A stretch of DNA of 64,000 nt from positions 1 through 64,000 of the forward strand of contig NZ_JANHAV010000005.1 in assembly GCF_024464655.1 (NCBI RefSeq), given 5' to 3'. Positions within the stretch are counted from its first letter, which is position 1; each line of letters opens with the position of its first letter. Shown here piece by piece: positions 4,358 to 14,934 of this stretch. This stretch comes from Halobellus inordinatus (GTDB taxonomy: Archaea > Halobacteriota > Halobacteria > Halobacteriales > Haloferacaceae). The translations under genes and the position numbers were made by a program. A model generated the notes under the pieces. That model was not told where the DNA came from. It searched no databases and saw only the letters and a list, made by a program, of their open reading frames with translations.

Positions 4358-5728
4358 TCACCAGTAGACTGCAACAAAATTTGTTTCCAGGTATATCTTA
4401 TTTGACTTCCCATCTGATGATCCGCTCGGGTAGTCGCCCTCGAATGAAGATGAGTCAAGGAAATCCGCACGTTTTCGAGGAATGTTTTCCAAACCATACG
4501 CCTCTAAATCTGATTCCGATAGTTCGGATGCAAGGGAAACCTCCACTCGTTGAAGAAGGGCCTCTTTAGCTTCATGGGACTCATTCTTAAGAGATGAATC
4601 GATTTCGTCTAAGACCGTGCTAACCGTTTCTGGAGGAAAACTACGGTCGGCCTCCGATTCAAGCCAGTTCAAATAATCGCAGACCGAGTCTTCGAAGTCC
4701 TCTGATCCACTTGTGGATTCTTCATTCGACTCTTGGAACTCGGAAGGAAGATCTTCGATATCGCTCGCTGTTTCAGGGAAAACAGTGCTAAGTATATCGA
4801 CTAATTTGAGCGGACTCCAGTCAGAATTCGGCTCGGGATTATCAAGACGACCATAAATTGTAAACTCATTCTCACTGAACAGAACACGGGATGGTTCCTG
4901 CCAAAGATTATCCTCATCGATGAACCCCGCAAGGTATAGCTTGTCGGTATCTACGTTATGCTCTTCTGCCCAATCATTAGCGACGATGATTCTGTTTACT
5001 TTCTCACTATCTTCCGATTCCATCTCTTCTTTATATACGCCATAATTGGAAACTTCGCATTCAATTGGAATTAGGCCTGCCATCAGAATTTCCATTAATT
5101 CCAAAACCATCGCGATCTCGTCAGCTGAGACTCCTTGTTGTTGGAGTTTTTGCCTAAACTCTTCCTCAGAGGAGAATGATTCCACTATATCTTCAAACGC
5201 ATCAAATATTAGGAAATATTCATATATCTCTGAGCTTTTTAGTGTCGCATCGAGCTCAACTAAGCTTCCTCGTAAAAGCTCCTGAGTTTGAGGGGTTCCG
5301 CTTAGTTCAGTAGATTCTATATCTGTGGCAACGGGGGCGGCAACGTCGGTACTCGGCCGTGTATCTCTATGATCAGATATATCCAAGTCGTTCTTCCTGA
5401 TTTCGTACAACTCCTTAAAATTCGATTGAACTACATACCGCTGGACGGTTTCATTAGTTTCAGATTCATTACTCCCAACGGAGGCACCAATCGGCCCTAA
5501 GGAACCTTTTATGCTTGAAGAGATACGTTGCTTCTTACTTGTTGTTTGTTGCTGCGTAATCCCACCTGTAGTAGAGGATAGTAAGCTGATTAGTGCAGTC
5601 TGGTCAAGATATACGAACTCTTTAAGTTCTGGATAAGAAGCCCAACCAAGCCGCTCGGCGGCGTTATTTTTTCTTCTGACACCCCACCAGTAGACTGCCT
5701 CAACTGCTCTCGTAATTCCACCGATCAT
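4358..5728 (-). CDS. DUF6414-like protein
   Basis: The 456-residue soluble protein contains the segment F-V-Y-L-D-Q-T-A-L-I-S-L-L-S near residue 38, followed by a Gly/Gln-rich stretch. That resembles the start of the DUF6414 family as I remember it, proteins often found among accessory genes. The middle is helical and very acidic; the C-terminus ends in short strands. No enzyme motif is evident. The start ATG overlaps the stop of the AAA+ ATPase by four bases (ATGA), so the two are translationally coupled, and DUF6414 is probably the partner or substrate of the ATPase. Confidence 0.65.
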   Translation of the reverse strand: MIGGITRAVEAVYWWGVRRKNNAAERLGWASYPELKEFVYLDQTALISLLSSTTGGITQQQTTSKKQRISSSIKGSLGPIGASVGSNESETNETVQRYVVQSNFKELYEIRKNDLDISDHRDTRPSTDVAAPVATDIESTELSGTPQTQELLRGSLVELDATLKSSEIYEYFLIFDAFEDIVESFSSEEEFRQKLQQQGVSADEIAMVLELMEILMAGLIPIECEVSNYGVYKEEMESEDSEKVNRIIVANDWAEEHNVDTDKLYLAGFIDEDNLWQEPSRVLFSENEFTIYGRLDNPEPNSDWSPLKLVDILSTVFPETASDIEDLPSEFQESNEESTSGSEDFEDSVCDYLNWLESEADRSFPPETVSTVLDEIDSSLKNESHEAKEALLQRVEVSLASELSESDLEAYGLENIPRKRADFLDSSSFEGDYPSGSSDGKSNKIYLETNFVAVYW

Positions 5729-6912
5729 AATTGATCGGCTCTCCTCTCATAGCTAATTATCAGATCAGTCATCGTTATCTGTTCTCGTCCCGCATTTACA
5801 CTAATTATCCCTGCCTCGTTTAACAGAGACTCTAAATCGGCTCCATTCCAACCTTCTGTCATTGAGGCAATTTCTCCTGCATCTACCGAATCTGCTACTT
5901 CATATTCCTGTCGTAGTGAATTGAATATCTCAGCCCGTCCTTGAGAGTCTGGGATTTCAAATTTCACCTTCCAATCTAAGCGTCCAGGTCGCAGCAAGGC
6001 TTCATCAATATCATCCACCCGGTTTGTTGATCCTATAACCAACAATCCTTCTGATGCCTTATCCACGCCGTCCATCAGCGACAACAGTTGCGCTACAACA
6101 CGATTTCCAAATTGCTGGTTTGGTCCGTCACCTCGCTTACTCCCTAAACTGTCAATCTCGTCGAAGAACAAAATTGAAGGTTCATTATTTTTAGCATCCT
6201 GAAAAAGCGCGCGAAGTATCTCCTCTGTATCGCCAACCCACTTCGTAACGATCTCGGGTCCACGTATTCTGTAAAAATTAGCGTTGGACTCCGATGCTAA
6301 AATCTTAGCAAAAAACGTCTTGCCTGTGCCTGGCTTCCCATAAAAAAGAGCACCTAATTTTGGTTCGGTGCCAACCTGTTCAAGTTTATCACGACTATTC
6401 AGCATCAGATCGACTCGTTTCTGGACGTGCTCAAGTTGCTCCCACATCCCTCCAAAATCCTCAAAGCCGACGGTGAGCTCTTCAGAAGAGAATCTAAGGT
6501 CGTCGACATACTCATTAATATCTGTTTTCTCCGGAATTAGTGAATCTCTCTGAATAGGAGACGGATTGATACAGTCCTCTATTATGGCCCTGTCAGATAT
6601 TTCAACTGTGTTGTCTTCCTTAACAGTAACTCCGTCTCCAATATCATAAACGGATAGCCGGCCACCAACATCTACGACTGCACGTTCATCAAGAACCTTC
6701 TTGACAACGCCAATAGTATTGCCACGGTCGCCACCAACAGGATCAATTATCGCCTCAACCTCATTATGCCGGTTAACGAGTATTGCATTCCCGCTATCAG
6801 GTGAAAGATCGTCCGGACATTCCAAGACATCAATACCACCGGTACCCCACTCAACCAACAGCAGATCTACTTCACCATCACTTACTACCCTGGCTACAAT
6901 TGCATATCTCAT
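5725..6912 (-). CDS. AAA+ ATPase of the PAN/Cdc48 class
   Basis: The 395-residue protein carries one AAA+ module after a beta-rich N-domain of about 140 residues. Visible motifs are Walker A GKPGTGKT (192-199), an aromatic pore-loop W-V-G (225-227), Walker B ILFFDE (to 252), sensor-1 Asn (about 297) and the paired arginines of LLRPGR (308, 311). These are the parts of a ring-shaped protein unfoldase. The C-terminus (DQL) is not the HbYX tail that docks PAN on the proteasome, so it probably serves another partner. It sits between a 67-residue protein (3 bases upstream) and DUF6414 (4-base overlap). The gene is AT-rich, unlike the cellular cdc48 at 40.1 kb, which points to transfer. Confidence 0.85.
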   Translation of the reverse strand: MRYAIVARVVSDGEVDLLLVEWGTGGIDVLECPDDLSPDSGNAILVNRHNEVEAIIDPVGGDRGNTIGVVKKVLDERAVVDVGGRLSVYDIGDGVTVKEDNTVEISDRAIIEDCINPSPIQRDSLIPEKTDINEYVDDLRFSSEELTVGFEDFGGMWEQLEHVQKRVDLMLNSRDKLEQVGTEPKLGALFYGKPGTGKTFFAKILASESNANFYRIRGPEIVTKWVGDTEEILRALFQDAKNNEPSILFFDEIDSLGSKRGDGPNQQFGNRVVAQLLSLMDGVDKASEGLLVIGSTNRVDDIDEALLRPGRLDWKVKFEIPDSQGRAEIFNSLRQEYEVADSVDAGEIASMTEGWNGADLESLLNEAGIISVNAGREQITMTDLIISYERRADQL

Positions 6913-6915
6913 AAA

Positions 6916-7116
6916 TCACTCATCTTCACAGACAGTTTCTCTCAGCTCTTTCAACAACTGAGGGTGGTTTTCCTCAAGAATCTCGAGATCTGTGGGCAAC
7001 TCATCATTAATTCGAGAACGGATTTCGGAGATCGCTTGGTATCGGCGGTTTTGATTCTCTTCATCCGCAAGCAATTCTCTATCTCTTTCTGTAAGCAGTG
7101 CTCGGGTCCGTCCCAT
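6916..7116 (-). CDS. Small conserved haloarchaeal protein, possible regulator
   Basis: The protein starts with MGRTRALLTERDRELLAD and is almost entirely helical and charged; an ATG 24 bases upstream (7140) would add eight residues, but the internal start fits homologues I remember. Proteins like this are scattered over haloarchaeal genomes without a known function. The size and the Arg-rich N-terminus would suit a DNA-binding regulator, which is inference. It leads the AAA+/DUF6414 operon, three bases ahead of the ATPase gene, and lies next to the paired direct repeats that could be its operator. Confidence 0.6.
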   Translation of the reverse strand: MGRTRALLTERDRELLADEENQNRRYQAISEIRSRINDELPTDLEILEENHPQLLKELRETVCEDE

Positions 7117-7171
7117 CTTAGTTTGCCTATCTGGACACATTGACTTCCAATTACCGCTCCCGTCTGTAATA

Positions 7172-7202: not shown

Positions 7203-7254
7203 CAAACCTTTAATGTGGTTGGAAAATACAGTTGTTCCTAAGAAGCGCGGGATA

Positions 7255-7317
7255 CCGGCCAGAAACTGGCCGGAGCGTGCTGGAACACGCCCGACCGTGC
7301 TTCCCGGTAAGGAAGCA
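7255..7317 (+). ncRNA. Three consecutive hairpins in the leader of the RAMP operon
   Basis: Three perfect stems follow each other: CCGGCC/GGCCGG (7255-7260, 7268-7273), GCGTG/CACGC (7275-7279, 7286-7290) and TGCTTCC/GGAAGCA (7298-7304, 7311-7317). The last stem ends on the A of the first start codon, so it could hide that start from the ribosome. It may be a translation-control leader or a structured RNA bound by the RAMP proteins encoded just downstream, where no CRISPR array is present. The role is inference; the pairing is visible. Confidence 0.45.
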
Positions 7318-7658
7318 TGTCAATGAAGACGTCCGCCGGACTTGAGAATTCCGGCACGGATAGCGAAGAGAGTCGGACAAACAACGACGAAGAGGACGGC
7401 GACGTTTCACGCCGCCAGTTCCTCGGCGCTGCAGCTGCACTGTCGGTTCTTGGTTCTGCCCCAAGCAATACAGCCACCAGTTCGAGTGAGCCAGAACAGT
7501 CCGAAGAAGAGCTCTGTGCTGATATCTACGAAGAGCAGATCATCCCTGCCCGAACTCACCTAATCGCCATCAAAGGTGAAGGGGCGGAACCGGCCAAAGC
7601 AGAACTGGAAGAAGCGGTGCGCCGGCTTGAGGCATTCTTGGAGGGCTCCGATGCCTGA
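7317..7658 (+). CDS. Small protein with Tat-type signal
   Basis: This 113-residue protein has a twin-arginine motif S-R-R-Q-F-L-G (about residues 31-37) followed by a hydrophobic stretch, as in Tat-exported proteins, but after an unusually long 30-residue polar lead. The rest is a Ser/Glu-rich linker and a charged helix. Its first gene position in a cytoplasmic RAMP operon is unexpected; the stretch may instead be a hydrophobic helix that tethers the protein. It overlaps the next gene by eight bases. A second ATG at 7323 would give almost the same protein. Confidence 0.6.
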   Translation: MSMKTSAGLENSGTDSEESRTNNDEEDGDVSRRQFLGAAAALSVLGSAPSNTATSSSEPEQSEEELCADIYEEQIIPARTHLIAIKGEGAEPAKAELEEAVRRLEAFLEGSDA

Positions 7659-7779
7659 GCCGCGCGTGACCGCCCGCATCGTCCGAACTGAGGACGGTGA
7701 AACGTACCCTGAGTACTGCGTCGGCGGCGTCGGCTATGGTAGTCTCGACGCGCTCGAAATGGCTCTCAAGGACCGATAA
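7651..7779 (+). CDS. 42-residue protein in the RAMP operon
   Basis: The reading frame begins ATG-CCT-GAG inside the end of the previous gene and stops five bases before the Cas7-like gene. The protein has two short strands with a Gly-rich turn (VGGVGYGSLDAL). The overlap and spacing argue that it is really translated. I do not recognise it; it could be a small subunit of the complex encoded downstream. Confidence 0.5.
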   Translation: MPEPRVTARIVRTEDGETYPEYCVGGVGYGSLDALEMALKDR

Positions 7780-7784
7780 CGCCG

Positions 7785-8648
7785 ATGATTGAAGACATAG
7801 ACCGCGATGTGTTCGTGCGGGTCCAGACCGACCTGCTGGTGATCGGTGACAGCATAATGACCGACCGCCATCACGCCTCAAGCGGCAACTACGAGGATGA
7901 TGACCCGCAGAATCAGATCGGTGGGATCATCCCTGCATTCCCGTTGTCGGGCTGGCTTCGCCACGGAATCGAGGAGGTCGTCCAAGAATACGGCGGGACG
8001 GCCTGCCATCCTGGTGAGGCCAACGCGAACTTTATGAAAGCCGACGTCTACGACCGCGATCTCGACGCCGGCTACCACGAGAAGGGCGCGTGTACGGATG
8101 ACCCGAAGGAAGACGACGGCTGTGTCGTCTTCGACCTCTTCGGCGGCTTCGGCGGCGTTCCCGGCAAGGTGATGCGCCGACCGATCCAATTCTCGCCAGT
8201 CCGCTCGAACGTCGACTACACGCGCGGGCAGGCCGAAGGCCACTATCGACGGCTGAACCGGAACGTCGTCTCCCGGAATCGAGAGGATAACCGTGAGCCG
8301 CTACGGAACGCCGAGATCGACGCTGTCGCGAATCTCGAAGGTGCGTGGCATCTGTCCTTCCGTGAAACAAAGCCCGAGTTCGTCGGCCTACTCGCCGAGG
8401 CGATCGACTTCCTTGACGAGCATCGCACTGACTTTATGCACCAACTGGGCGGTGCCCGCAACTTCGGGGCGGGAATCGTCGACTGTGAGCTCATTAACCC
8501 GCTGTACAATGAGCGCGAGCTGAAGCGGGTCTTCGACCGCGGAAAGGGCAACACGAACGCGATGGACGAGAAAGACGAGCGGTGGGCAGAGGAGTACCGC
8601 CCCAGCTTCGTGGAAACCCTCGAAGATCGCATCGCTGAGGGGCCGTAG
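7785..8648 (+). CDS. Cas7-like RAMP protein (HRAMP module)
   Basis: The 287-residue protein shows the signs of a Cas7-family RNA-binding backbone subunit: the motif I-P-A-F-P-L-S-G-W-L-R-H (49-60), an acidic Cys-containing insert leading to F-D-L-F-G-G-F-G-G (116-124; compare the LFG motif of Csm3-like proteins) and a terminal Gly-rich loop G-G-A-R-N-F-G-A-G-I (222-231). It most likely coats a guide RNA. With the next two genes it matches the haloarchaeal derived class 1 CRISPR-like module HRAMP, described as Cas5 and Cas7 relatives plus an unknown protein and no CRISPR array. Confidence 0.75.
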   Translation: MIEDIDRDVFVRVQTDLLVIGDSIMTDRHHASSGNYEDDDPQNQIGGIIPAFPLSGWLRHGIEEVVQEYGGTACHPGEANANFMKADVYDRDLDAGYHEKGACTDDPKEDDGCVVFDLFGGFGGVPGKVMRRPIQFSPVRSNVDYTRGQAEGHYRRLNRNVVSRNREDNREPLRNAEIDAVANLEGAWHLSFRETKPEFVGLLAEAIDFLDEHRTDFMHQLGGARNFGAGIVDCELINPLYNERELKRVFDRGKGNTNAMDEKDERWAEEYRPSFVETLEDRIAEGP

Positions 8649-8649
8649 G

Positions 8650-9429
8650 ATGACGGAAAACACGACACTCAGCGACTTTCAGAACGTCGGCGAGCGGAAC
8701 CCTATGGTCGCGGCCTATCGCCACGATGCTCACAAGCTCAACGGCGAACCGCATAGGACTGCTCCGGACACGTTCGCTGGTGTACCGGTCAATCAGTCGA
8801 TCCCACACGGCGCAGATTCGGATGCATCAGCGTTGAGTCGGCCACCTGGGAAACCAGAGAAGACGGTTGACAATCACGACACTCACTATCGGCTGTCGCT
8901 GCTGACTGGAGAGAGCGCCTACGATCCAGATGACTTCGCTCGTCCGATGCTCTCAGAAGCGATCAGCGACCTGCTGACGAGTTCCGACCCAGAGACGATG
9001 CATCGGACGTGGCTCACGTCCGACGTGGCCAGCGGATTCAACGAGTCGGTCTACTACCCCTATACGAGCCTGAAGTACCACACTCTGCTCGTGGCGGCGC
9101 TCCTTGACGCCTATCAGCAGAACCAGGAGTTCGAAGACCTCCTGCTGATCGTCGACGACTCAGACGAAGTCGAGCCGTTTCGGACGATCTATACCGGAGA
9201 ACAGTTCTCGCTCCGGCTTGGTTCGGAATCAGGCGGGCGTCCGTGGGCACGCTTGGGTAGCCGACCGTGGCGGTCGTGGGCGGCCACGTGGATGCGGTTG
9301 ACCGCGAACCCTCTGAAAATCGATCAGAACAAGCAGACGATGGTACTGGACGCGAACCTTCGTCGGATTGGTGCGTGGAGTACCGCACTCCAGTACATCG
9401 AGGATTTCGAGGAGGAGTACGGTCTATGA
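8650..9429 (+). CDS. Unknown conserved subunit between the RAMP genes
   Basis: The 259-residue soluble protein has no motif I recognise. It starts one base after the Cas7-like gene and overlaps the Cas5/Cas6-like gene by four bases, so the three are one translational unit. Its position agrees with the uncharacterised protein reported for HRAMP loci; a large-subunit (Cas8-like) role is possible but only by analogy. A Trp/Arg-rich stretch near residues 197-215 (PWARLGSRPWRSW) could contact nucleic acid. Confidence 0.65.
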   Translation: MTENTTLSDFQNVGERNPMVAAYRHDAHKLNGEPHRTAPDTFAGVPVNQSIPHGADSDASALSRPPGKPEKTVDNHDTHYRLSLLTGESAYDPDDFARPMLSEAISDLLTSSDPETMHRTWLTSDVASGFNESVYYPYTSLKYHTLLVAALLDAYQQNQEFEDLLLIVDDSDEVEPFRTIYTGEQFSLRLGSESGGRPWARLGSRPWRSWAATWMRLTANPLKIDQNKQTMVLDANLRRIGAWSTALQYIEDFEEEYGL

Positions 9430-10376
9430 CCCGCATTCAGCAAGTCCACTGGGAGTTGGAGATGGACTACATCGGCCATCCCTACTACGTGAGCGGGAAC
9501 GCGATCCTTCACGCGATTGGGCACCAGCTCACCCACGATGATGCCAAACGTCTGAACGCCAGTCACGGGATGTTCGTCCCCGGTCAGTTCGGAACGTATC
9601 CCGAAGAACACGCGCAGGACGGGATACTCCCGTATATGGGCGCGACATTGCCCGATGTCGAGGCGTACGACGACCTGTTCCTCTTCCGGAACCCCCACCA
9701 TCACTGGCTGCTTGACAGCCGTGCGAGGGACGCGTTGAACACGCACGATCCCCGGCCACAGAGTGGAGAGATGGCATTAGCTCACGAGACGATTATGGGA
9801 CGTCCTGAGGAGGCATACGCGCAGACAGAGACGACGTCGTGGTTCATCCACGCCTATCTGCACGCCGATGACCCTGATACGCTGCCGCTGGGCGAGGACG
9901 TGCTCGATGGCATCCAGTTCGGTGGCAGGCGGAACTACGGCTACGGCAGTGTCCGGCTGAAGGATACGCAGGTCGTGGATCTGGAGGCCTTAGACTACTC
10001 CCGGCTGCGAGGCGCAGATACCTACCTCCTCGAGCTGGTGTCACCGTACGTTGTAGACAGTGAGTATCCCGGCGCAGATGGAGATACAGTACCGTGGTGG
10101 TGGTCGGTAGATCACGACGATGGACTCCGTCGCCGTGCAGAGAAGATCGTCGAGCAAGGAGAGGTCTACGACCTCGTGACCGTCGACCACGGCCAAGTCG
10201 TCGGATATGCGAGCGATTCGCCAATCGAGACGGCGAAGAATGCTATCCGCCGAGTCGGGACCCACTCGAAGTATGGGTTCGGCGAACTTCGCGTGAAGCC
10301 GATCGAGACCGAGGAGCCGGAGATGAACGGCAGCGAACTGGCCGGTTATAGAAAGGAATCTGATACATCGGCCTAA
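9426..10376 (+). CDS. Two-domain Cas5/Cas6-like RAMP protein (HRAMP module)
   Basis: The 316-residue protein starts at the ATG that overlaps the preceding stop (ATGA). It has two RAMP-type glycine loops, I-Q-F-G-G-R-R-N-Y-G-Y-G-S-V (163-176) and V-G-T-H-S-K-Y-G-F-G-E-L (277-288), which implies two ferredoxin-like RNA-binding domains. It would be the Cas5 relative of the module and bind the end of a guide RNA. The N-terminal half is rich in histidines (positions 18, 29, 33, 37, 47 and a triple at 91-93), so an RNA-cutting role like Cas6 cannot be excluded. Confidence 0.75.
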   Translation: MTRIQQVHWELEMDYIGHPYYVSGNAILHAIGHQLTHDDAKRLNASHGMFVPGQFGTYPEEHAQDGILPYMGATLPDVEAYDDLFLFRNPHHHWLLDSRARDALNTHDPRPQSGEMALAHETIMGRPEEAYAQTETTSWFIHAYLHADDPDTLPLGEDVLDGIQFGGRRNYGYGSVRLKDTQVVDLEALDYSRLRGADTYLLELVSPYVVDSEYPGADGDTVPWWWSVDHDDGLRRRAEKIVEQGEVYDLVTVDHGQVVGYASDSPIETAKNAIRRVGTHSKYGFGELRVKPIETEEPEMNGSELAGYRKESDTSA

Positions 10377-10878: not shown

Positions 10879-13800
10879 ATGAGCCAGGCGACGCTTGCTG
10901 ACCGCCCGTACGTCAACTCGAATCTCTTCTCCGGGCACTATCTGGATGAACGCCTTCGCGATCGCGACGAATGGGAGTGCGACGCCGCCGCTCAGGAAGC
11001 CTTCTCTGAGCTGCAGTCGCTCTACGAGCTCGAAGGTGAACTGGTACCGGGGTACAAGGAAGACGCCCTCATAGACGACTGGATCGGGGAGATTCTGGAC
11101 ATCCTTGGATACGGAACATCCGAAGAAGTAACTCTCCCGGAAGGTGGCGGCTTCGTCGACGAACTTCTCTTCGAGACACCAGACGATCGGCGCGACGCCG
11201 CGAGGGTCTACCTCCATTCCGAGGAAACGACGGACCTCTTCGAGCGGGGGATCGGGCTCGTCGAGGCCAAACAGTGGGACGCCGACTTCACGAAGCGGTT
11301 CAGCGAACAGCGCCCGTACCGGAACGCCTCGCATCAGATCAAACACTACCTCGAAAACACGCCGTCGAATATCCAGTGGGGCGTGCTCACGAACGGGCGG
11401 AAGTGGCGGCTCTACGGGACGAACAACTACGAGACACAGACCTACTACGAGGTCGATCTGCCCGAACTCTTAGAGCGCGGTGACCTGGAGGCGTTCAAAT
11501 ACTTCTACGTGTTCTTCCGGCCGGCGGCGTTCCACGAGTCGGGCGGCACAACGTTCCTCGACGAAGTCTGGTCCGAGAGCGAGACCGCATCCCAAGAACT
11601 CGGGGAAGATCTGCAGGACAACGTCTTCACCGCGCTGCGCGTGCTCGGGAAGGGGTTCGTCGAGACGGACAACGGCTTCGATATCGACTCCGACGACGAC
11701 GAAGCGCTCGACGAGCTGAAAGAGCAGTCGTTGGTGCTGCTGTATCGCCTGATGTTCGTGCTGTACGCCGAATCGCGTGGGCTGATCCATCCCGAGGATC
11801 GCTCGGCGCAGGACCACTACGACGAGAACTTCAGCCTCGACGAGCTCCGTATCGAGATCCACGACGAGATCGGCGAGGTAGACGAGGGTTTCGCCGAGGA
11901 GTACAGCGAGTACTCCACGTCGATGTGGAACCGGCTGGAGAATCTCTTCAGCCTGATCGACGAGGGTGAAGAGGACCTCGGGATTCCGCCCTACAACGGC
12001 GGGCTGTTCAACCACGACGAGCACGCCTTCCTCACCGAGCACGGGGTGAGTGATCAGTATCTCTCCGAAGTGATCTACCGGCTCTCGACGGTCGAGAACG
12101 ACGACGGCCGGTACGTGCTCGCGGACTACGCCGACCTGGACACGCGGCACCTCGGCTCGGTGTACGAGGGCCTTCTGGAGCATCAGTTCCGCATCGCGCC
12201 GGAGCAGTACGCGGCCGTCTCGGAGGACGGCGGACAGGTCTGGAAGCCGGCCACGGAGGTCTCAGTCGCCGACGCAGTCGAGACCGTCGACGAAGGCGGA
12301 CTGTACGTCGTCAACGACGAAGGCGAGCGGAAGGCCACGGGCTCGTACTACACACCGGACTACGTCGTGACGTACATCGTCGAGGAGACCGTCGGGCCGC
12401 TCGTCGATGAAATCCGGGAGGATCTGATTGACCAGGGCTTCGAGCCCGGAACACAGGAGTATCTGGGGCCGTTTCTCCGGCGGGTGACCGACCTCCGCAT
12501 TCTGGATCCCGCGATGGGAAGCGGGCACTTCCTCACGAAGGCAACGGGCTATCTCTCCGAGCAAGTGATGTCGGAGGTCCGAGAGGCCGAATCGGAGTTC
12601 GGCGTCGCCTTCGACGAACAGCACATTCGCCGGGAGATCACCAAGGAGTGTATCTACGGCGTCGACCTCAACGGGATGGCCGTCGAGCTGGCGAAGCTCT
12701 CGATGTGGCTGGAGACGCTGGCCGCCGATCGGCCGCTGGCGTTCCTCGATCACCACTTCAAACAGGGGAACTCGCTCGTCGGGAGCGACATCGAGGACAT
12801 CGAAGAGCTGGAGTCGGACGCGAGCGAAGACGACGACTCCCAGTCATCTCTCGCTGAGTTCGGCGCGACTCGTGAGGGCACGATCGAGCGTCTGATGGAT
12901 ATCTACTCGGAGTTCCTCGCGATCGAGAACGAGAGCATCGAGGACGTCCACGAGATGAAGCGGAAGTACGCCGAAATCGAACAGGACGACCTCCGGAAGC
13001 GCCTGGTCGCGATGGCGAACGTGCATACGGCCGAGCGGTTCGACGTCGACGTTCCCGGCGGGGCCTACGAGCGGATGGCGAAGGCGCTTGAAGATGATTC
13101 CGAGTGGGAGGCCGTTTCAGAGGCGGACTGGTTCAAAACGGCGCAGACGTTGGCTGCGGAGCAGGATTTCTTCCACTGGAAGCTGGAATACCCGGAGGTA
13201 TTCTACAAGGAGGGCGGCTCAGAAAGAGAAGATGCTGGTTTTGATGTGATTCTTGGCAACCCTCCTTACGGATACCGGAAAATACCCTCAGATGGTCAGA
13301 AAAGATACTACGAGTCATCTTTTGAGAGCCACCAGTATAACTATGAATTCTATATGTATTTCACCGAACAAGCAATTGACATCTGTAAACAAGGGGGCCA
13401 CTCGTCATTTATTATACCAAATACATACCTATCTGCAGAAAACTTCTCGCAATTTAGGGAATACATCCTCGATAAAACTTCAATATCTGAAATATTCTAC
13501 TTAGGGCTGGGTGTTTTTGACGGGGTTACGATTGAATCGGTAATTCAAAGATTGCAAATCGGAGGCAGTAACGAAGATGTACTGATTAAGTTTGGAGGAA
13601 ACGGATCTACTGTGGACACATCAAAAGAATACAACATTGACCAATCTCAGTTTGAATCTTCAGAGGACTACGTTTTCAATATAAATGTCTCTCCGGAGCG
13701 TAAAGAACTGGTTGAGAAAATGGATCGCGTTTCGGTAGATCTGGGCGAAATATCATACACAACGGTGGGAATCAATACCGGATATATTCGGGATGTCCTC

Positions 13801-14934
13801 GTCTCTGATAAAAAAGAAGACAATCGGTATCACAAGATGCTGAGTGGGAGTAACATCGGACGATATTCGCTAAATTGGGATGGTAGATGGATTTGCTATG
13901 ACCCAGATGTTATCAAGGAATATGGCGATAAAGCCCGAACACTACCTCCTGAGTATATTTTCACGGAGCCTAAGATATTGCTCCAAAGAACCAGACGAGG
14001 TCTGGATAGGAAGCTTGTAGCAACGCTTGATGAGAATGAGTTTTACAACTTGAATAGGGTCTCAAATGTAGTTTTAGAATCAGATGCTTATCAGTTAGAT
14101 TTCCTCACAGCGGTGCTAAATTCGACTCTACTGGATAGGTATTTCAATTGGATTTTTGACGAATACGAAGTAAAGCCAACGCACCTTCGGGAACTCCCGA
14201 TTATTCAGGTAGACGAGATTTCTGTAGGGGAGAAAATCAGAGATATAATCCCGGAAGAGCCACCCAAAAAGATCCAAGAAAAAGTTGGATCCTTAGCAAG
14301 AGATATAATAGAGGATAAACAGTCTCGTGAAAATCTGAATCTATCGCTCACAGACTACATTGGTACGGCTTACGACGGCCCTTCTCTGACAGACATAGGG
14401 CTTTACCAACCCCCGAAAGGCGTCGGCGACACGAAACTCACGGCCACCAAAGAGGACTACGACAACCTCCGAATCGGCTCAGTATCCACCGAACGCGACA
14501 CTGGCGACACGGTCGTCATCCACGCCACGGCGCGCTACAAGCCGGAAGACGAAGACGCCCACGAGACCGATCGGTGGGGCTACACCGAGACCGAGCCGAT
14601 CCCGGCGATGCGGCTCACGGATCTCACCGAGGTCGAAGCCGAGCTGGTCGAGGCGTTCGTCCCGGTCGCCGTCGACGAGGCGGGCGGCTTCGCGAACTTC
14701 CGCGAGACCGCGACGAAGACGAACTCGCTCGTCGACCGACTCGAAGCGCTGACACTCCCAGATCCCGACGACGTCGCCGACGGGCTGGAGCGATATATCG
14801 ACGCAAAAGAGCGCGCTGCGGAGTTAGACGAGAAGATCGAGCGGACCGACGACCTGATCGACGAGATCGTCTACGAACTGTACGGGCTGACCGACGAGGA
14901 GATCGAGATCGTGGAGTCTGCTGTCGGGGAGTAG
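10879..14934 (+). CDS. Type IIG-like restriction enzyme/adenine methyltransferase
   Basis: The 1,351-residue protein (start at the ATG giving MSQATLADRP) combines a nuclease and a methylase. The N-domain has the PD-(D/E)xK-type residues D94 and E129-A-K131, then W-G-V-L-T-N-G-R-K-W as in HsdR/Eco57I N-domains. The methylase follows: SAM-binding L-D-P-A-M-G-S-G (near 542) and catalytic N-P-P-Y (794-797), typical of N6-adenine enzymes. From about 13.23 to 14.40 kb, the expected target-recognition region, the DNA is clearly AT-richer than the flanks, so the specificity part was probably exchanged by recombination. It would cut unmodified DNA and methylate host sites. A BREX PglX-like role is an alternative, but PglX normally lacks the nuclease. 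Confidence 0.8.
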   Translation: MSQATLADRPYVNSNLFSGHYLDERLRDRDEWECDAAAQEAFSELQSLYELEGELVPGYKEDALIDDWIGEILDILGYGTSEEVTLPEGGGFVDELLFETPDDRRDAARVYLHSEETTDLFERGIGLVEAKQWDADFTKRFSEQRPYRNASHQIKHYLENTPSNIQWGVLTNGRKWRLYGTNNYETQTYYEVDLPELLERGDLEAFKYFYVFFRPAAFHESGGTTFLDEVWSESETASQELGEDLQDNVFTALRVLGKGFVETDNGFDIDSDDDEALDELKEQSLVLLYRLMFVLYAESRGLIHPEDRSAQDHYDENFSLDELRIEIHDEIGEVDEGFAEEYSEYSTSMWNRLENLFSLIDEGEEDLGIPPYNGGLFNHDEHAFLTEHGVSDQYLSEVIYRLSTVENDDGRYVLADYADLDTRHLGSVYEGLLEHQFRIAPEQYAAVSEDGGQVWKPATEVSVADAVETVDEGGLYVVNDEGERKATGSYYTPDYVVTYIVEETVGPLVDEIREDLIDQGFEPGTQEYLGPFLRRVTDLRILDPAMGSGHFLTKATGYLSEQVMSEVREAESEFGVAFDEQHIRREITKECIYGVDLNGMAVELAKLSMWLETLAADRPLAFLDHHFKQGNSLVGSDIEDIEELESDASEDDDSQSSLAEFGATREGTIERLMDIYSEFLAIENESIEDVHEMKRKYAEIEQDDLRKRLVAMANVHTAERFDVDVPGGAYERMAKALEDDSEWEAVSEADWFKTAQTLAAEQDFFHWKLEYPEVFYKEGGSEREDAGFDVILGNPPYGYRKIPSDGQKRYYESSFESHQYNYEFYMYFTEQAIDICKQGGHSSFIIPNTYLSAENFSQFREYILDKTSISEIFYLGLGVFDGVTIESVIQRLQIGGSNEDVLIKFGGNGSTVDTSKEYNIDQSQFESSEDYVFNINVSPERKELVEKMDRVSVDLGEISYTTVGINTGYIRDVLVSDKKEDNRYHKMLSGSNIGRYSLNWDGRWICYDPDVIKEYGDKARTLPPEYIFTEPKILLQRTRRGLDRKLVATLDENEFYNLNRVSNVVLESDAYQLDFLTAVLNSTLLDRYFNWIFDEYEVKPTHLRELPIIQVDEISVGEKIRDIIPEEPPKKIQEKVGSLARDIIEDKQSRENLNLSLTDYIGTAYDGPSLTDIGLYQPPKGVGDTKLTATKEDYDNLRIGSVSTERDTGDTVVIHATARYKPEDEDAHETDRWGYTETEPIPAMRLTDLTEVEAELVEAFVPVAVDEAGGFANFRETATKTNSLVDRLEALTLPDPDDVADGLERYIDAKERAAELDEKIERTDDLIDEIVYELYGLTDEEIEIVESAVGE

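Follow-up and report, generated by a model that had tools for sequence, protein, structure and literature searches.

A compact, predicted Cas10-like protein and a conserved, possibly bistable leader RNA at an array-less HRAMP operon of Halobellus inordinatus

The window analyzed here is a 64,000-nucleotide stretch of Halobellus inordinatus DNA (contig NZ_JANHAV010000005.1, positions 1 to 64,000), in which three core genes in the order cas7-mid-cas5 form an HRAMP (haloarchaeal RAMP) operon spanning positions 7785-10376, preceded by a structured leader RNA (Table 1). HRAMP was reportedly defined by Makarova et al. in 2019. In the HRAMP passages of two papers, such modules are described as haloarchaeal and as composed of diverged Cas7 and Cas5 proteins and a conserved third protein, with no array (PMC8730458, PMC12669027), an associated nuclease being presented as typical rather than defining (PMC12669027). 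Membership was judged here by these descriptions: we found a diverged Cas7 homologue, a diverged Cas5 homologue, a conserved third protein between them that is widespread in Halobacteria, and no array of its own. An earlier note on the window had already read the locus as an HRAMP-type operon, and a check of the reading frames found its open reading frames (ORFs) where that note had placed them. The Cas5-like ORF starts at 9426, the listed GTG start at 9267 being too early.

The Cas7-like protein matched the Csm3 profile of PADLOC (E = 8e-5) and the RAMPs family of Pfam with an E value of 0.034, which does not reach the Pfam cut-off; its matches to Csm3 profiles are weak but consistent. The Cas5-like protein matched Cmr3 of PADLOC (E = 1.6e-8), and its structural model (predicted local distance difference test, pLDDT, 76) was closest to type VII Cas5 (Z 14.6), followed by type III-D (Z 14.2), Cmr3 (Z 12.4) and then Cas6. 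Searches of the PDB by sequence alone with the Cas7, middle and Cas5 profiles returned nothing useful. The profile search that the earlier note had proposed thus revealed a relation to RAMP proteins, and these profiles, the Cas5 fold match and the kept gene order bear out an HRAMP-type operon with Cas7-like and Cas5-like proteins. Homologues of cas5 occur in 98 of 341 Halobacteria genomes belonging to 42 genera, many of them fragmentary, and of 40 neighbourhoods of 18-20 kb that were fetched, 39 have the order cas7-mid-cas5 and one has no cas7 match. A second copy lies in the H. inordinatus genome itself (contig C11, 701.5-704.3 kb, 58/48/46% identity). The arrangement is therefore not a product of chance. 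HRAMP was also present on 21 haloarchaeal plasmid records, and no relatives were found in viral contigs and phage records. Many genomes (G313, G128 and others) carry several broken copies of HRAMP cas5, a pattern that points to rapid gain and loss. At one locus (L037), the middle protein and the Cas5 region read as one ORF of 615 amino acids, a possible fusion.

The middle protein was modelled by AlphaFold with good scores (pLDDT 86.7, predicted template modelling score 0.87). The best 20 Foldseek matches of this model in the PDB were all Cas10/Csm1 chains, none of them individually significant (best E 0.087), and a Foldseek search of viral structures gave no match. With VIA-align, the 50 entries listed were all type III Cas10 chains, with Z scores of 8.9-12.7 and 197-238 of 259 residues aligned. 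Models that have no clear match typically reach a best Z of 7-8, or about 14 if they are mostly helical, and for this reason the uniform make-up of the list counts for more than the Z scores themselves. In an alignment of 88 distinct rows, the motif R24-H25-D26-x-H28-K29 is invariant except for one D26G among the 86 rows with letters there, and H35 and D56 are also invariant. An HD dyad thus stands near the N-terminus, as in Cas10, and the dyads of the two proteins agree within one residue, as read from alignment start points and Cas10 HD positions. By its predicted fold, which is that of Cas10, the middle protein looks like a reduced, compact Cas10-like subunit and not a full Cas10.

The first ORF is preceded by a conserved three-way-junction RNA of about 80 nt, which the earlier note had missed. 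Two covariance models were built, R1 for the B-type and R2 for the A-type of this leader, and they replaced home-made scans for switch motifs, which were too noisy. The window leader matched R2 with 79.8 bits (E = 3.7e-16), the sole strong R2 match in the genome, and R1 matched at C11:704834-704927 (3.8e-10), so that each strong leader match in H. inordinatus directly precedes one HRAMP operon. The folding z score of the window leader was -4.6, and -5.5 without the 3′ tail. The model itself served to collect the aligned leaders, which biases the counts in its favour. Among them, 21 of 23 pairs were changed on both sides, with a covariation score of 0.412 against 0.198 for shuffled and at most 0.116 for slid alignments (0/500); for A-type leaders the count was 14 of 18 pairs (0/500 shuffles). 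The 28 leader copies lying outside intact HRAMP operons, which were not used in model building, were 96.4% paired with a score of 0.548 (0/500). Slid controls show a much smaller excess of compensatory changes, and all three covariation scores lie far above them. Across 79 leaders, a T/A-rich box has its maximum at positions -31 to -28 relative to the RNA 5′ end, which is the spacing expected for transcripts beginning at this end. Rfam gave nothing credible around the window leader and no match at the leaders of five loci. The leader was present within 2.6 kb upstream of 70 of 81 distinct HRAMP operons of both clades described below, and several of the 11 operons lacking it are broken or cut by contig ends.

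The 3′ strand of helix P1 can pair instead with the segment ending at the AUG, forming helix P4, and the two helices are mutually exclusive because bases 7299-7303 are common to both. The mean length of P4 was 6.1 bp, compared with 4.7 bp when the tails were shuffled, and 70 of 79 leaders had a P4 of 5 bp or more. In the A-type alignment, for which the fit was made to P1 rather than P4, 86.1% of cells were paired and the covariation score was 0.211 against 0.110 for shuffled and at most 0.081 for slid alignments; neither the paired cells nor the score were reached in 500 shuffles. Both strands are altered together in two loci, L056 and L086 (GCTGCC/GACAGC), and in the window leader the P1 and P4 states are 2.8 kcal/mol apart. 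A further hairpin, P5, persists in L053, L058 and L103 although both of its strands have changed there, and explains the peptide MKTSAGL..SGT common to otherwise unrelated first ORFs. From the alternative pairing of P1 and P4, the leader is most likely a bistable translational switch, with a possible additional role in transcript processing.

A Cas7 tree of 73 loci has two fully supported sides, one with 34 loci including that of the window (clade A) and a sister side with 39 (clade B). Nuclease genes follow the core in 39/39 loci of the sister clade and in 0/34 of the window's clade. They belong to DEDD (c6), HNH (c5) and PD-(D/E)xK-like (c19, named from its motif alone) families, and Pfam supports HNH (1.9e-10) and RNase_H_2 (3e-6). 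Sister-clade loci often adjoin the BREX genes BrxL, PglZ and BrxHII. For the window's clade, the invariant HD-type motif of the middle protein, hereafter mini-Cas10, is the best candidate for the missing nuclease.

Homology, synteny, the clade split, RNA covariation, TATA spacing and the alternative pairing were computed here, and on balance we favour reading this locus as a type III-derived Cas10-Cas7-Cas5 RNA-binding complex under the control of a bistable leader RNA, in a clade with no dedicated downstream nuclease. Mini-Cas10, Cas7 and Cas5 would probably assemble into a complex that binds RNA. Transcription would start at the 5′ end of the leader; P1 would form in one state, and in the other its 3′ strand would pair with the segment just before the AUG as P4. 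The leader, under the divergently encoded small regulator, would keep the operon low until a trigger arrives. This could be autoregulatory, with the HRAMP complex itself binding, or a signal from mobile elements, whose operons begin with the same leader. The HD motif of mini-Cas10 would act as the nuclease, and the operon presumably serves in defence.

Several results weigh against this reading. The Cas10 assignment comes from structure, and sequence profiles show nothing: Pfam, NCBIfam and PADLOC gave no match to the middle protein, which the earlier note had called unknown and which the model and structure comparison now make assignable as Cas10-like. With hhalign against eight Cas10 proteins, the sole alignment independently sets the motif on the HDIGK of Cas10, which speaks for the assignment, but it is not significant (E 0.23). 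The HH pair of the Cas10 HD domain has no evident counterpart, and no GGDD cyclase motif occurs in the sequence or the consensus; the HD site may therefore be a vestige. The P4 covariation is modest, as shuffled alignments often did as well in the number of pairs changed on both sides (173/500) and in the number of pair types (306/500). Finally, the leader also heads operons with no HRAMP genes, and is not HRAMP-specific, since the B-type occurs in 194 of 341 genomes as against 98 of 341 for HRAMP cas5. As to the cyclase motif, GGDD is degenerate or missing in some Cas10 proteins and is not required for membership.

This distribution, with the A-type in 117 of 341 genomes, makes it a serious possibility, a little short of even, that the leader is a general haloarchaeal regulatory leader of mobile elements borrowed by HRAMP, and that HRAMP proteins do not bind it. 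The fetched leaders outside HRAMP, which usually adjoin a divergent gene of c4/c7 type, head SWIM-domain ORFs or an operon that looks proviral and adjoins a gene for a tail tape-measure protein, and leader type changes at least 6 times on the Cas7 tree, so the header moves independently of the HRAMP core. However, its place before 70 of 81 operons in both clades indicates strong retention. No leader DNA pattern was found in viral contigs; the c4 regulator matched one Natrinema virus regulator in phage records, and an R1 scan of that locus revealed no leader. At three loci (L182, L183, L184), 3-4 leader copies follow one another, and each precedes small ORFs of SWIM zinc-finger or similar type that have an N-terminus of the form M..N..SGQE and adjoin c4-type regulators. 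Four others (L186, L191, L192, L195) combine the leader and c3 with PD-(D/E)xK-like or DEDD and HNH nuclease genes and lack the cas7-mid-cas5 core, representing internal deletions or a minimal variant.

The second operon, on C11, holds genes for both a DEDD and an HNH protein, and these could provide the nuclease function in trans. We consider this unlikely, as that copy belongs to the other clade and shares about 46-48% Cas5 identity.

No repeat array was seen at the HRAMP locus. The Cas1 of the genome lies in a complete type I-B locus elsewhere (cas6, cas8b, cas7, cas5, cas3, cas4, cas1, read from translations), followed by a long repeat array, and further repeats occur on contig C3. As the array belongs with the type I-B locus, no array in the genome is left that would clearly serve HRAMP, in agreement with the array-less locus of the earlier note. 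Also, neither Cas6 nor a source of CRISPR RNA was found at the locus, and we therefore do not class it among type III CRISPR-Cas systems. The leader, or a piece cut from it, might then be a built-in guide or scaffold in place of the array: structured RNA is bound by RAMP-type proteins, and many A-type leaders have ..CGAAGC at their end, similar to the ..TCGAAGC with which the I-B repeat of this genome closes. We regard this as improbable, for the resemblance covers only 6 nt, B-type leaders end in GAACCC, and a start codon and conserved hairpin, not a variable spacer, directly follow the leader. A bolder proposal, which we hold to be a long shot, is that HRAMP is a self-contained Cas10-Cas7-Cas5 machine in which the array is replaced by recognition of one class of structured RNA, comprising its own mRNA leader (autoregulation) and transcripts made early by haloarchaeal mobile elements (non-self), with the HD site of mini-Cas10 as effector.

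The type IIG enzyme at 10.9-14.9 kb, which the earlier note had suggested as partner nuclease, is a most improbable one: it is adjacent, on the same strand and looks intact with its own methylase, but a gap of about 0.5 kb separates it from cas5, its best PADLOC models are DrmMI and a self-contained type IIG, and it was rejected as a recurrent partner because no homologue follows cas5 in other loci, the whole Cas7 clade (34/34) being devoid of downstream nucleases.

Table 1. Features of the HRAMP locus and its leader in the window
Feature	Position	Strand	Support
Divergent small gene, 74 amino acids, family c7, likely regulator	6916..7140	-	Recurring cluster position
TATA-like box TTTAAT of the operon promoter	7209..7214	+	T/A-rich peak over 79 leaders and sequence reading
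A-type structured leader RNA	7240..7319	+	Covariance model match, folding z, covariation
P1 of leader	7242-7250/7295-7303	+	
P2 of leader	7255-7262/7266-7273	+	
P3 of leader	7275-7279/7286-7290	+	
P4, alternative hairpin GCTTCC/GGAAGC adjoining the start codon	7299..7316	+	
Start codon of first ORF, 3′ limit of leader	7317-7319	+	
First ORF, 113 amino acids: leader-linked N-terminus, Tat-signal-like middle, variable remainder	7317..7658	+	
P5 hairpin GCCGGA...TCCGGC within first ORF	7335..7355	+	
42-amino-acid protein, family c9, directly 5′ of cas7	7651..7779	+	20 loci
Cas7-like (Csm3-like) HRAMP protein, 287 amino acids	7785..8648	+	Profiles
Middle protein, 259 amino acids, compact Cas10-like subunit (predicted), R-H-D-x-H-K at 24-29	8650..9429	+	Model, structure comparison
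Cas5-like (Cmr3 / type VII Cas5-like) HRAMP protein, 316 amino acids	9426..10376	+	Profile, fold match

The two small proteins in front of cas7 had been taken as extra to the module. This holds only in part: the 42-amino-acid protein belongs to a family that recurs in the window's clade, and the 113-amino-acid protein is variable, with conserved first ~12 codons that look like part of an RNA structure. In the neighbourhood comparison that had been proposed for the small proteins and the nuclease, the IIG enzyme did not recur. Genes of three small families (c4, a winged-helix family weakly matching Pfam TrmB, c7 and c8) are oriented divergently from the leader and occupy this upstream position in most loci. 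The flanks are as previously claimed, with a divergent AAA+ gene on one side and the large type IIG enzyme (10879-14934) on the other. The AAA+ protein (PAN/FtsH-like, PADLOC IetA 2.6e-35) is followed by a DUF6414 protein (4358-6912), co-directional with the divergent 74-amino-acid gene, and the pair may be a separate defence module. In five clade-A loci (L053:7237-7896, L064, L149, L082, L094), a TnpB/Cas12f-like protein of 219 amino acids stands directly before cas7; it keeps the RuvC part and the zinc finger and lacks the N-terminal half. In Halorubrum-type loci, HRAMP is repeatedly preceded by a gene resembling tRNA-ribosyltransferase (TGT) and by an HATPase protein (L122:5471-7459 and neighbours).

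HRAMP has so far been puzzling, since this relative of CRISPR lacks an array, had no RNA ascribed to it and contained a core protein of unassigned identity. The Cas10-like assignment would turn its core into a recognisable type III complex, and the leader would be its first RNA component, with a testable mechanism. A strongly covarying leader absent from Rfam and present in a large share of haloarchaeal genomes offers a concrete RNA for tests of binding, switching and targeting, and is a reason to examine leader-controlled expression of archaeal defence operons.

Among known systems, the locus resembles HRAMP as described in passages of PMC8730458 and PMC12669027, being haloarchaeal, with diverged Cas7 and Cas5, a third protein, no array, and a sister clade carrying HNH and PD-(D/E)xK-type nucleases. 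It differs in that the window's clade has no dedicated nuclease and the third protein is here assigned as Cas10-like; the HRAMP passages of these two papers mention no leader RNA. With type III systems (Csm/Cmr) it has Cas10-, Cas7- and Cas5-like subunits in common, but the Cas10-like protein is only ~259 amino acids long, with no GGDD found, and the locus has no Cas6 and no array. Type VII Cas5 is the best structural match of the Cas5 model, whereas the Cas14 nuclease and the array of type VII are absent and a Cas10-like subunit is present. Unlike bistable leaders and CRISPR autoregulation, the window leader has no Rfam family match and is common to mobile-element operons. It resembles bistable cis-regulatory leaders such as riboswitches in being a 5′ leader with mutually exclusive helices, and its likeness to L-tracrRNA and CreTA-type CRISPR autoregulation would lie in the control of CRISPR proteins by RNA.

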